In this document: positions 18,507-62,843 of the stretch, in pieces
Position numbering within the stretch: the first letter of the stretch is position 1
How the letters are laid out: every line of letters begins with the position of its first letter
From: Candidatus Poribacteria bacterium
GTDB lineage: Bacteria > Poribacteria > WGA-4E > WGA-3G
Reading direction: 5' to 3'
DNA: 64,000 nt
Assembly: GCA_026710795.1 (NCBI GenBank)
Contig: JAPOQK010000005.1
Span: 1-64,000, forward strand
Translations under genes and position numbers: made by a program
The notes under the pieces: model-generated
Told to the model about the DNA's origin: nothing
Seen by the model: only the letters and a program-made list of their open reading frames with translations
The model's database searches: none

Positions 18507-22640
<4,134 letters not shown>

Positions 22641-22680
22641 ATATGTCCAATACATATCCAAAATAAATTCCATTTTTAAT

Positions 22681-22709
22681 TTGACACATACAAATAGATA
22701 CTATATAAT
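22681..22709 (+). promoter_or_regulatory. Perfect sigma-70 consensus promoter of putative RNA copy A
   Basis: TTGACA (22681-22686), 17-bp spacer, TATAAT (22704-22709). Exact consensus at both hexamers with optimal spacing, repeated in the homologous locus at 62242-62270. The flanking bases are also conserved between the two loci. Confidence 0.8.
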
Positions 22710-22715
22710 TAACAC

Positions 22716-23030
22716 ATGTTTAGAATGTAGTCCTATATCGATAACACGTGTTTGGATACTCAAAAAGAGGTTAGGTTCCCTGATGAAGCGACAATTCGTG
22801 AACACAAACTTTACAGCCACAATGTGCGACAATTTCCGAAGGTAAGATTGAGTGAAACAAACAAAAATGGGGCAGAAAAAAAATGCTAAAATCGCGTCAC
22901 TTTCCTTGTCCAGACTGGATTCAAAACGTCACAGTGACGTGCAAAAGGTCACATTTAAAACACATAGGAATGGTATTAAACGGGTATCTGTCTTTACACT
23001 ACATTCTGAGGTTCAGAAAACAGAATGAAA
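22716..23030 (+). ncRNA. Putative structured small RNA, copy A
   Basis: The 5' end is inferred at about 7 nt after the -10 box; the 3' end is uncertain. The first ~65 nt and a core at 22892-22961 are conserved with copy B (62277-62640), while the middle diverges. The core starts TCGCGTCAC, continues with TTCCTT and GACTG, and then has CGTCACAGTGACG, which folds on itself and can also pair with flanking GTCAC motifs. A hairpin CATTCTG/CAGAATG lies at 23002-23027. No open reading frame with a ribosome-binding site fits. It does not show the hallmarks of tmRNA, RNase P or SRP RNA that I can check by eye; a 6S-like RNA or a lineage-specific RNA are options. Confidence 0.5.
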
Positions 23031-23109
23031 TATAGTCTTGAAACCGATCCAACAAGAGAAAAGTAATATCCATGCCAATAACTTTACGCACTCACAAAGA
23101 TTAATTTGC

Positions 23110-23138
23110 TTGACAAATTCAACGAAAACCTATTTAAT
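23110..23138 (+). promoter_or_regulatory. Sigma-70 promoter for the RidA gene
   Basis: TTGACA (23110-23115), 17-bp spacer, TTTAAT (23133-23138), about 70 bp before the RidA start. Its presence means the upstream RNA locus need not be the 5' leader of this gene. Confidence 0.6.
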
Positions 23139-23211
23139 AATAAAGGTTATTCTAACCAATCGTGATTGTTACACCATTAAATATGAACTTATTCGGGAGA
23201 TATAAAATTAG

Positions 23212-23673
23212 ATGAAAATAGAGAAACGGCTTGAAGAATTAGGGATCGAATTACCAGAACCTGCAATACCCGTAGCAAATTACGTTACCACAGTTCAAAC
23301 AGGAAATCTTGTCTTCACATCTGGACATGGACCCGGCACAGGTGAGGGCAAAATCTATAAAAGCCAACTCGGCACAGATGCCACCATTGAAGAGGGATAT
23401 GAATCTGCACGTCAAGTTGGACTCGGATTAATAAGTACACTCAAACATGCGTTAGGCGATCTGGATCGGATCAAACGCGTTGTGAAGGTAGTCGGTTTTG
23501 TCAATTCTTCTGCAGATTTCACTGATCAACCTGCTGTCGTCAACGGTGTATCAGATCTACTTGTTGAAGTATTTGGTGATAAAGGCAAGCATGCACGTTC
23601 TGCTGTTGGCATGGTGCAATTACCCGGTGGTATACCTGTTGAAGTCGAAATGGTCGTAGAAATTGAAGACTAA
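23212..23673 (+). CDS. RidA/YjgF-family enamine/imine deaminase-like protein
   Basis: 153 aa, typical for the larger RidA subgroup that starts IEKRLEELGIELP. TSGHGPGTGEG and the end ARSAVGMVQLPGGIPVEVE carry the family signature, including the Arg that holds the substrate carboxylate. RidA hydrolyses reactive enamines/imines from PLP enzymes; in this subgroup the substrate is less certain. It lies 22 bp before fabV. Confidence 0.85.
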   Translation: MKIEKRLEELGIELPEPAIPVANYVTTVQTGNLVFTSGHGPGTGEGKIYKSQLGTDATIEEGYESARQVGLGLISTLKHALGDLDRIKRVVKVVGFVNSSADFTDQPAVVNGVSDLLVEVFGDKGKHARSAVGMVQLPGGIPVEVEMVVEIED

Positions 23674-51234: not shown

Positions 51235-51476
51235 ACCTTCCCTCCTTTCGTGTGTATCCAATGCCTAAAATAATAAACCGATAGTCGTTAATCCATAGGT
51301 CTGGTGCGTTATGAAATACCTTCAGTCATAGGTTTATATATCTAAGTTCTTCGTAAAATATATCACGTTTGACTTTTTTTATCAAGCGGAATTATTTAAA
51401 TAGATATGTAATTTTCGCCATGTGTTTTTCTGTTAGAATCACAAAAAGCACAGAAGGGTTTTAGTTTGCTGATGTT

Positions 51477-51623
51477 TTGTCTGAATCAGGATTATCAGGA
51501 TTGTGAGTTTGAAACTATACATCACATATCTAAGTATAGATGTTTATCTATTGAAAGGAACCTCGAAATACCATATTCATAATCCTGGAAATCTTGTAAT
51601 CCTGATAATCTTGGTTCAGACAA
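51477..51623. repeat. 26-bp inverted repeat of 9-nt AATCCTGAT units
   Basis: Arms 51477-51502 and 51598-51623 are reverse complements with three mismatches. Each is built of ATCAGGATT (or AATCCTGAT) units and ends in TTGTCTGAA/TTCAGACAA. The unit is the same as the GGTTCAGACAAT-tailed array seen near 22512, 36570 and 62160. The rest of the 600-bp gap (51235-51863) shows nothing identifiable. Confidence 0.65.
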
Positions 51624-51863
51624 TTAATCATGCAAATTCTGGTTCAGAAAAAACTTAAAAGAAAATAATATGTGGATATTTATCGTAGAATAGGGTAACA
51701 TATTAGCATATTGATTCGTCTAAAAAGAGTTCTACCAATTGATCCAACTAATTCAAATGCGGTGGATGTTTCAATAAAATTCTGATAATAACTACATGAA
51801 TAGAAACCTTAGTGGCGAACATGCCTAAACGATTATTACACTATCTAAGCATAAGGAGTTATG

Positions 51864-60671: not shown

Positions 60672-61796
60672 TTACGAAACGCAAAACCGATCAACAAACT
60701 TGCTAAAGATGTCGATTCCCTTCTCAAATTGATCTAATGCCATCCACTCATCAACGGTATGTGCTTGTAAAATACTTCCTGGTCCTATAATCACTGTTTC
60801 CATGTGCTTTGAAAAGACCGCTGCATCGGTGCTATACGCCACAGTATGCGGTTTCGTATCTCCAGTGATTTCAAGTGCTGCTTGGATAATATCAGCGTCA
60901 GGTGACGTGCGAACGGGACCAGCATTGATGAATAGATTGAATTCCAATCCGTATTTTTCAGCCGCTTCGCGTCCCCGATCAATCCATATTTGCGGTTCGT
61001 CACCCGGCATCGGACGGTAGTTTATATTACACACACTCATTGGTGAGGTGATGTTGGCGGTACACTCTCCATCACTGATGGTGATATTCCAATCTGTAAA
61101 GGGCGGGGTAAATTCAGAATTGAAATATTGAGAATCGGTTGTCAATTCTTGATGTATCTCTCGCATTTCTGAAAGAAACGGTATGAGTTTTAGATTTGCA
61201 TTGTCTCCTTCACCGGTGCTGCTGTGGGCTGCGCGTCCGTATGCAGTCACCGAAAAACGAACTGCACCTTTGTGGGCATAAACGGCTTTCAGCTCAGTCG
61301 GTTCCCCAACCACCCCGTATTGTGGAAATCCGTGCTGTTTGAACATCTCCGATTTTTCTTCAACAGCACTTGCACCAAAATAGCCGACCTCCTCATCAGC
61401 AGTGATAACCACATACAGTGGGGCATCTAACTCAGACACGGAATAACGAGACGCAACCTCAATCATACAAGCGACGCTGCCCTTCATATCGCAGCTGCCA
61501 CGACCATACATCTTATCGCCTACGATTCGCGCCTCAAAAGGGTTTTCTGACCAGCCAATCGCAGGAACGGTGTCTATATGTCCAAGAAGTGCGAGTCCAC
61601 CTTTATTGGTATTGCGTCCTTTACGACCAATCAGATTTACTTTCAGTACACCTGCGGGGTCATTATATTCCACACGTTCCACTTCGCAACCAACGGATTC
61701 CAACGTATCAGTAAGGAAGTCCATGACTTCAACGTTGCTTTCAGGGCTTACTGTGTCATAACCAATAAGTGTTTTAGTCAATTCTATTGCATTCAT
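60672..61796 (-). CDS. ArgE/DapE-family deacetylase (M20 peptidase)
   Basis: 374 aa. LALLGHIDTVPA (metal His and Asp), YGRGSCDMKGSVA (bridging Asp), TADEEVGYFGA (catalytic Glu) and the dimerisation domain start AVRFSVTAYGRAAHSS are present; the last His is in GPGSILQAHTVDEW. Closest in pattern to acetylornithine deacetylase, but M20 members act on many N-acyl amino acids. No arginine genes adjoin it. Confidence 0.88.
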   Translation of the reverse strand: MNAIELTKTLIGYDTVSPESNVEVMDFLTDTLESVGCEVERVEYNDPAGVLKVNLIGRKGRNTNKGGLALLGHIDTVPAIGWSENPFEARIVGDKMYGRGSCDMKGSVACMIEVASRYSVSELDAPLYVVITADEEVGYFGASAVEEKSEMFKQHGFPQYGVVGEPTELKAVYAHKGAVRFSVTAYGRAAHSSTGEGDNANLKLIPFLSEMREIHQELTTDSQYFNSEFTPPFTDWNITISDGECTANITSPMSVCNINYRPMPGDEPQIWIDRGREAAEKYGLEFNLFINAGPVRTSPDADIIQAALEITGDTKPHTVAYSTDAAVFSKHMETVIIGPGSILQAHTVDEWMALDQFEKGIDIFSKFVDRFCVS

Positions 61797-62029
61797 AGTT
61801 TTCTATTTTACTGAATGCTGTGTAGTTTGTCAATTCCTTTTTATCATAAAAGGTTTATTAGTTTTAGGGTTTTTGATTAGATTTTATCACAAACGTTCTT
61901 GTTCCTATTGCTTTTTTGAGGTGTTCAATCATTATTTGTCTCAACTAGGACTTGCCGTTTACAGGACCCCTAACATTGTATGGTAGGGTCTCTGTGTCCT
62001 GCCATATCCATCCTTTAAAAAGGAACACT

Positions 62030-62200
62030 GGAATACCAAACTCATAATCCTGTAAATCCTATAATCCGTGGAATGCCAAAAGGCATTCATACCCGACAAA
62101 TGCCATACGCGCATTTGGCGTTGATTTGGGGGAACGCCAACAGGCGTTCATACCGTTGATTTCTTGATTTGGTAAATCCTGGTTCAGGCAATCATAATTT
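62030..62200. repeat. 9-nt repeats and three P3 hairpins
   Basis: AATCCTGTA/AATCCTATA units lead into GGAATGCCAAAAGGCATTCATACC, CAAATGCCATACGCGCATTTGGCG and GGAACGCCAACAGGCGTTCATACC hairpins (family P3), then TAAATCCTGGTTCAGGCAAT. The upstream part of the 1-kb gap (61797-62029) holds only an imperfect GACCC/GGGTC hairpin near 61970-61995 and no gene. Confidence 0.6.
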
Positions 62201-62241
62201 AAAATACCAATATATATCCAATAAAACATTTACTTTTTAAT

Positions 62242-62270
62242 TTGACATCTACAAAAAGATACTATATAAT
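62242..62270 (+). promoter_or_regulatory. Perfect sigma-70 consensus promoter of putative RNA copy B
   Basis: TTGACA (62242-62247), 17-bp spacer, TATAAT (62265-62270), as in copy A. The spacer and flanks are also conserved (AGATACTATATAATTAACA in both). Confidence 0.8.
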
Positions 62271-62276
62271 TAACAT

Positions 62277-62640
62277 TTGTTTAGAATGTAGGATTATATC
62301 TGTGACACGAGTTGAGATACGTTAGAAGGAGGTATAAACACAAATTCACCAAGTGTGTAGTGCTTGGTTTTTGTGTCTAAGGGACTGTATATGGGGTTTC
62401 TAAATTTCCCAGCTTCATGTCTTACAAATTGTGAAGGTAGGTCAAGATAAGAAAAAGACTAAAAAGGAGCAAATAAAAAAAGCGAAATTCGCGTCACATT
62501 CCTTATCCTGACTGAATTCTTTAAGTCACAGGTGACGTGTAAAACGTCACAATTTATAGCACATACTGATAAACAACGTAAGGGTAAATTAACAGGTATA
62601 GGTTTGCTTCTCTCTACACGGTCTATAAGAGATTATATTG
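62277..62640 (+). ncRNA. Putative structured small RNA, copy B
   Basis: It shares with copy A the 5' block (TGTTTAGAATGTAG) and the core from TCGCGTCAC (62489) to ACGTCAC (about 62550). Here GTGACGT and ACGTCAC form a perfect 7-bp hairpin with a 5-nt loop. The variable middle carries its own strong stem, ACACAAA/TTTGTGT continued by ACCAAG/CTTGGT around 62339-62377. The 3' end is not defined. The next gene has its own promoter at 62705. Confidence 0.5.
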
Positions 62641-62704
62641 AATTGTGAAAAATATATCCGAAAATACTTAAAACCAAATAACCCTGTTGTCATCAAATTG
62701 TATC

Positions 62705-62733
62705 TTGACAAGATATAATGGAAAGATTAATAT
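62705..62733 (+). promoter_or_regulatory. Sigma-70 promoter of the TolB-like gene
   Basis: TTGACA (62705-62710), 17-bp spacer, TAATAT (62728-62733), about 110 bp before the coding start. Confidence 0.55.
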
Positions 62734-62843
62734 AAATATATGATGTGTATATCTAAATGAAGTTCTACAATATTCAACCTAATTTTCCTCAGAATATGCC
62801 GACTTTTATTGCAAACTGACTAAATAAAATATTGCTCTATTAT

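Follow-up and report, generated by a model that had tools for sequence, protein, structure and literature searches.

Locus A, an intergenic stretch in the 64,000-nucleotide window of Candidatus Poribacteria DNA analysed here, is probably a shortened copy, lacking a transposase gene, of a dispersed mobile element; this copy directs its own promoter toward the host gene and carries a core likely bound by a regulator with an HTH_3 domain. That the element is mobile and targets promoters is strongly supported by sequence comparisons, which demonstrate its copy number, a fixed distance to host promoters, an empty site for a second copy (locus B), a full-length structured RNA and the linkage between core and regulator gene; in relatives they also show terminal inverted repeats and duplicated target sites.

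Structure of locus A

The element copy at locus A comprises positions 22599–23093 on the plus strand, with an uncertain left limit. It is situated between a divergently oriented gene for queuine tRNA-ribosyltransferase (21274–22485, minus strand; PF01702) and the host gene, which belongs to the YjgF/RidA family (23212–23673, plus strand; PF14588, PF01042). An earlier note had described an exact TTGACA-N17-TATAAT sequence, and a motif scan of the window recovered it at 22681–22709 on the plus strand, where it forms the element's own sigma-70 promoter. With spacers of 16–18 bp and both strands considered, the window contains just two exact matches to this promoter, 22681 and 62242, 39,561 bp apart. 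The same note had reported conserved 5' and core blocks with a divergent middle at a second locus 39.5 kb away. This was borne out by BLAST, which aligned 22609–22771 with 62174–62333 (76% identity) and the core block 22854–22966 with 62451–62565 (79% identity), leaving the stretch in between unaligned. The motifs listed there, TCGCGTCAC, TTCCTT, GACTG and alternating GTCAC/GTGAC, are all found at locus A, and the region 22690–23100 is indeed overlapped by no open reading frame of more than 58 amino acids.

The conserved core (22852–22957, plus strand) consists of an A-tract, half-site A (GCGTCAC, 22894–22900, plus strand), a spacer, the palindrome B/B' (ACGTCAC-A-GTGACGT, 22926–22940, without strand) and half-site C (AGGTCAC, 22946–22952, plus strand). 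The right terminal repeat CAATAACTTTACGCACTC follows at 23076–23093 on the plus strand and differs from CAAAAACTTTACACACCC at three of 18 positions. The separate promoter claimed for the downstream gene is present 16 bp past the element end (23110–23138, plus strand); this TTGACA-N17-TTTAAT sequence is promoter-like with 11/12 matching positions, and a scan that insists on A as the second base of the −10 box passes over it.

Several other assignments were considered for locus A. A small protein encoded in the core was rejected because its frames hold stops or shifts between copies, owing to the variable A-tract and to indels in the palindrome. Searches for a tRNA or tmRNA gave nothing. The proposed comparison with the Rfam models of 6S, tmRNA, SRP and RNase P yielded no family at its gathering score, these four included, over the whole window. 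At locus A itself the sole Rfam match up to E 5 was SAM-II, whose 22 bits fall well short of the required 44 and which was taken as chance.

A dispersed repeat, AATCCTGGTTCAGACAA, was noticed at 22526–22556, 22601–22631, 36584 and 51474–51659; it is intergenic and often lies just 5' of elements.

Copy number and distribution of the core

A model built from 40 copies found the core at no fewer than 95 places at E ≤ 1e-3 in the own genome G000 (among the best 150 of 2282 candidates; the E-values of this model are rough). A DNA search of the same genome gave at least 63 matching pieces among the best 40 of 109 candidates. The G000 assembly comprises 4.70 Mb in 114 contigs and is 94% complete, and some copies are situated at contig ends. 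With 95 matches in one genome, the resemblance between loci A and B is therefore that of dispersed repeats. Among the 59 genomes examined the core was found in 21, all of them from one family and two genera; the named relatives are metagenome assemblies. Full-text searches of an open library, judged by titles and abstract openings, listed no earlier description of the element.

In an alignment of 40 copies, 49 core columns show no variation (AAAGGAGC, the A-tract, GCGTCACATTCCTTRTCCTGACTGGAT, ACGTCAC-A-GTGACGT and GCAAAAGGTCAC). The upstream parts of the copies fall into several types that are mutually unalignable, and even across these types the core is 80–94% like that of locus A. Of 109 copies, 59 have a sigma-70 match of 11–12/12 in the 300 nt 5' of their core, compared with 0/104 controls taken 1000–1300 nt upstream; in the remaining 50/109 copies a promoter of this quality is missing. 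Both the promoter scoring and the ORF caller were simple.

Copy positions are mostly non-orthologous between genomes, and many copies are internally deleted. The same picture emerged from 106 downstream proteins, drawn from 80 of the 95 own copies and from 41 copies of relatives: orthologous-looking downstream genes were confined to the gene of the HTH_3 regulator and two pairs (L157/L108, 88%; L140/L128, 98%), the other matches being distant family members. An ancestral shared regulon was rejected, since the downstream genes are mostly non-orthologous between genomes.

Putative mobile promoters and MITEs such as Correia elements are small and dispersed and bring a promoter into the upstream regions of host genes. 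Unlike Correia-type elements, the element described here has full-length forms with a large RNA and a core whose phased sites are linked to the gene of a single resident regulator.

Three further features of individual copies were noted. L047 (own contig C26, 3120–3842, minus strand) holds a 241-aa open reading frame between promoter and core that matches no Pfam family at E ≤ 0.001 and looks like a gene acquired or retained by the element. A second dispersed module, whose palindromes differ between lineages (GTTACC-N4-GGTAAC, GATACC..GGTATC, CGTACCG..CGGTACG), precedes the core or, in own copies, a short open reading frame (MKFNDIHKQF...); it is found at L023, L035, L041 and L046 (own), L111 (G002), L117 and L118 (G026) and L281 and L282 (G009). 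In columns 24–34 of alignment A1 the copies differ by a few nucleotides between GGNGC and the A-tract, and some of these variants form small palindromes (GGAGCTCC). Alignment A5 leaves out one near-identical G009 copy that is present in A4, and A2 leaves out the second G002 copy.

Insertion sites, terminal repeats and transposase

The element copy at locus B comprises about 836 bp (61850–62685, plus strand) with the left repeat AAGGTTTATTAGTTTTAG and the right repeat CCAAATAACCCT. Its promoter is located at 62242–62270 and its core at 62449–62554, both on the plus strand; past its right end lies a host promoter (TTGACA, 10/12 overall; 62705–62733, plus strand) ahead of a gene for a PD40 beta-propeller protein. 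The flanks of this copy, own positions 61602–61851 and 62687–62744, run continuously in the relative G008, from which the copy is absent. These roughly 836 bp are therefore an insertion, with no more than an imperfect repeat, TCATAAAA/TCATCAAA, as a possible target duplication. At the locus A site of the relative G010, own positions 22599–23072 are missing and the right repeat is retained. At the locus A promoter, inspection by eye found a type-i end in G008 and no element end in G001. A left repeat was searched for at locus A and no convincing one was found; no target duplication was seen there.

The ends are better defined in relatives. In G002 and G004 promoter and core are flanked by the inverted repeats GGGTGTGTAAAGTTTT...AAAACTTTACACACCC, and the core-bearing copies L228, L229 and L230 of these genomes have both terminal inverted repeats and perfect 9-bp duplications. 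L227 shows the same repeats and a perfect 9-bp duplication with no match to the core. Across 106 copies, the right repeat was present with at most three mismatches in 15, compared with none for the reversed pattern. The copies of type i, locus B among them, end in ...AAATAACCCTG; a matching left repeat AGGGTTATTTAGTTTT lies within 1 kb in 8/23 of them (control 2/23), and one of the eight type-i copies having both repeats shows a target duplication.

A 1.33-kb element of G002 shares its terminal inverted repeats with the core-bearing copies L228, L229 and L230 and encodes pieces of an ISKra4-family transposase in more than one frame (NF033572, E 1.5e-33 and 4.4e-8, each below the whole-protein cut-off). 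In the host assembly G000 the search for this transposase gave no match to NF033572, so we class the element as ISKra4-like and not as a proven ISKra4 member; since the assembly is 94% complete in 114 contigs, the insertion sequence may be missing from the data. Ends of the IS200/IS605 type or of RNA-guided systems (TnpB/IscB), suggested by hairpins, were dropped given the terminal inverted repeats, the duplications and the Mutator-type transposase.

Distance to host promoters and orientation

At locus A, 16 bp separate the right end of the element from the −35 box of the neighbouring host gene; at locus B the gap is about 20 bp, counted from ...CCC. For 47 copies whose right end has at most three mismatches we looked for a promoter scoring at least 9/12 at a set distance. 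Such a promoter was found at 19–20 bp from 20 of 32 type-i ends and at 15–16 bp from 6 of 15 ISKra4-type ends, that is, at a fixed distance in 26/47 copies. In 500 random placements the means were 0.25 for type-i and 0.07 for ISKra4-type ends, with a maximum of two each. At left ends a promoter pointing away from the element was observed at 14–20 bp in 13 of 30 copies, the random placements covering right ends only.

Guerillot et al. (2014; PMC3942029) report insertion 13–17 bp 5' of the −35 boxes of sigma-A promoters for TnGBS/ISLre2 and for part of the ISKra4 group; in 13 insertion sequences of the latter, ISKra4 included, they found promoters at both element sides. The element studied here resembles these systems in its terminal repeats, in its insertion just 5' of −35 boxes and in that either end can face a promoter. 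Unlike the 13–17 bp of ISKra4 and TnGBS, its type-i ends are 19–20 bp off, counted from ...CCC, and G000 lacks a transposase match. It also differs from both in having small copies with an outward promoter, a regulator-linked core and, when full-length, a large structured RNA.

Orientation was counted for 121 of 122 matches (E ≤ 1e-6; 80 own, 41 from relatives), 20 of which had no resolved neighbour. In 92 of the 101 copies with both neighbours resolved, a gene on the same strand lies ahead of the element, and between co-directional genes 34/40 copies are oriented along with them. As the distance to promoters is fixed in the manner of published promoter targeting, targeting accounts for the position before genes; after this result we gave up the idea that selection for regulation alone had produced the location bias. 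The orientation bias of 34/40 is not fully explained in this way because either element end can face a promoter; the idea that targeting fixes the orientation is undercut by the promoters that face left ends too. In L026 and L027 (own) both ends are at the typical distance from a promoter directed away from the element, which looks like the outcome of insertion between two divergent promoters.

The earlier note had interpreted loci A and B as a paralogous pair of small RNA genes. A consensus promoter, conserved segments and the lack of a long open reading frame are what stand-alone small RNA genes would show. The pair turned out to belong to a dispersed set of at least 95 copies; both stand next to host promoters at a fixed distance, and copy B is absent from G008. 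This copy number, the insertion anatomy and the absent site make independent small RNA genes highly improbable. Moreover, no terminator-like site was found in 22450–23300, and the leader of locus A (22711–22990) showed no folding stability beyond that of shuffled sequences (z +0.62).

An apparent large structured RNA in full-length copies

Full-length relatives, L242 of G014 (RNA at 1538–2174) and L248 of G028 among others, harbour an RNA of 0.5–0.9 kb between promoter and core or at the same position. Two single RNA sequences outfolded all 20 of their shuffles (z −4.06 and −2.89). A consensus from nine copies comprises 78 pairs, 14 of which have changes on both sides, in 23 cells; the best of 300 shuffles reached 11 pairs and 13 cells. 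Pairing was possible in 96.1% of the cells, compared with a shuffled mean of 93.2% and with 34–41% for slid partners, a comparison that favours the tested structure over its slid versions because it was derived from the same nine sequences. About the first 35 nt and about the last 45 nt are connected by 24 pairs. Rfam searches with L016, L049 and L111 gave no match to any of 4227 families up to E 1; the full-length copies appear to contain a large structured bacterial RNA outside these Rfam models. OLE, ROOL and GOLLD are large, structured, non-coding bacterial RNAs (PMC12286853). Unlike these, the RNA found here has no Rfam match and is embedded in a promoter-targeting element, and in G028 it lies ahead of the HTH_3 gene.

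The 5' part of the RNA was detected at 20/23 loci examined, with the core downstream on the same strand in 11 of these 20, and among the 59 genomes searched the RNA was restricted to one family. The host genome contains at least one near-full-length copy, on contig C58, with no core behind it (among the best 9 of 67 candidates). Locus A retains about the first 110 transcribed nucleotides, up to 22822, and then continues directly with the core; its promoter and 5' remnant (22680–22822, plus strand) are 81% identical to query positions 1–144 of the full-length G014 copy.

The lineage-specific small RNA postulated earlier is supported in part. Locus A is a promoter-bearing, non-coding and lineage-specific unit, and its 5' part (22680–22822) corresponds to the beginning of the large RNA; the view of A and B as two paralogous small RNA genes is not supported. 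The earlier note had regarded dispersed repeats devoid of compensatory changes as speaking against its proposal. The blocks are dispersed repeats, and compensatory changes do exist in relatives, where they concern the full-length RNA copies and not locus A.

In G009, the elements that harbour the long RNA at L272 and L273 end in a right repeat of the ISKra4 type, and L272 has both repeats. The repeats GACGTACA/TGTACGTC occupy the place of the core in these two loci; perhaps the core changed its site along with its regulator.

The core and the HTH_3 regulator

The core is also found in the 5' leader of a gene for an HTH_3 protein of 183–190 amino acids (PF01381, E 3.4e-5), located for example at 2616–3188 of L183. 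One copy of this gene per genome was found. A strong match was obtained in 9/59 genomes, and all nine are core-positive. They include the six genomes with the highest core counts: at least 95 in G000 and, under stricter filters and among the best 66 or fewer candidates per genome, at least 20, 17, 17, 14, 10, 6, 4 and 1 in the others, the counts in two of them being as low as 4 and 1. Conversely, the 50 genomes that lack a strong match include 12 with 1–6 cores. The core precedes the gene in 8/8 strong matches having upstream sequence, the ninth beginning at a contig end; the weak G029 match is not preceded by a core. This arrangement is kept across two genera and down to 43% protein identity, and in G028 the promoter is followed by the RNA, the core and then the HTH_3 gene. 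A search of 5.8 billion proteins returned 30 homologues, the sole organism-named one coming from Candidatus Poribacteria; the eight named records of the regulator protein are likewise all from Candidatus Poribacteria. Seven of the 30 homologues were combined with 8 loci in alignment A3.

The spacing of the half-sites is regular. A and B are 32 bp apart in 100/120 copies, B and C 20–21 bp in 98/106, and further repeats follow at 21–22 bp in 34/43; on the sequence these spacings equal about two or three helical turns. The HTH part of the protein was modelled at a pLDDT of about 90 (whole model 67.9). SinR and the P22 c2 repressors were the top folds in a Foldseek search whose best match had 7.4e-3, with none at E ≤ 0.001. 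Linkage, spacing and fold together predict that the HTH_3 protein likely binds the core array. The HTH_3 domain and its fold are common to this regulator and to the Cro/C1-type autorepressors SinR and P22 c2; unlike theirs, the supposed sites belong to the leader, 3' of the promoter, and a mobile element disperses them. The A-tract and the spacer between A and B are conserved and contain no half-site, so the operator model leaves part of the core unexplained.

We considered two alternatives for the role of the core. First, it could act as RNA, namely as a leader with alternative GUCAC/GUGAC pairings that controls elongation or translation of the HTH_3 gene and, by read-through, of host genes. 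The core lies 3' of the promoter in promoter-bearing copies and within the leader of the HTH_3 gene, as this would demand, and the two alternative helices share strand B'. In alignment A6, 38 copies picked for diversity, B':C has seven cells changed on both sides (0/500 shuffles) and B:B' two (25/500 shuffles). This shared covariation equally fits a protein reading one half-site code. A consensus fold of 40 own cores contained no compensated pair, and the leader of locus A is, as stated above, no stabler than its shuffles. The spacings of 20–21 and 32 bp and the arrays at 21–22 bp fit the DNA helix, and in one copy (L143) half-site A co-varies with B and C, which pairing with B' does not require. 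We regard an RNA function of the core as unlikely.

Second, the copies could be inert debris of promoter targeting without a regulatory role, their core being conserved through youth or because a transposition protein needs it. Their dispersed and mostly non-orthologous positions, the internal deletions in many of them and a location explained by targeting agree with this. Set against it are the 49 columns that do not vary among 40 copies, the 80–94% likeness across types with unalignable upstream parts, the location of the core inside the element and not at its ends, and its retention before the HTH_3 gene in two genera down to 43% protein identity. On balance debris seems to us a rather improbable account of the core.

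A model for the spread of the core

The reading that we prefer, a transposase-less copy whose core is bound by the regulator, can be put as follows. An ISKra4-like Mutator-type transposase would have placed the copies before host promoters. The element promoter would then transcribe through the core toward the host gene, as suggested by the orientation of the copies and the absence of a terminator-like site. The HTH_3 protein would bind the array as DNA, some 180–240 bp past the predicted transcription start, and might thereby lower read-through into the host gene and likewise its own expression. The outcome would be the promoter set of one regulator, spread over many host genes via transposition. 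Position and orientation may come entirely from insertion targeting and therefore need not mean regulation.

A more far-reaching version, which we put forward tentatively, is that a transposon family aiming at host promoters and equipped with a large ornate RNA and the operator array of one resident regulator wires about a hundred unrelated genes into one HTH/RNA network. The regulator gene might be descended from, or have been captured by, the promoter–RNA–core unit that is intact in G028. Already the promoter set proposed above would show transposition assembling a bacterial regulon in nature, through an element that lands at a set distance from host promoters and supplies both a promoter and a regulatory site common to all copies. 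A single protein and a single DNA site would then suffice to test the long-standing idea that mobile elements rewire networks.

Two variants of the presumed operators were observed in relatives. In L187, the HTH_3 leader of G017, and in one G016 copy (L143, 3303–3374, minus strand) the half-sites read GTCC/GGAC. The G017 regulator has YRTLTRWLS in place of YRTLIRWLN in its presumed recognition helix, a possible co-change with the half-sites seen in this single case. In L104 of G002, at about 2895–2940, the promoter of the HTH_3 gene is situated inside a perfect inverted repeat, CCCAATTATTATGTTA...TAACATAATAATTGGG, which could be a second operator.
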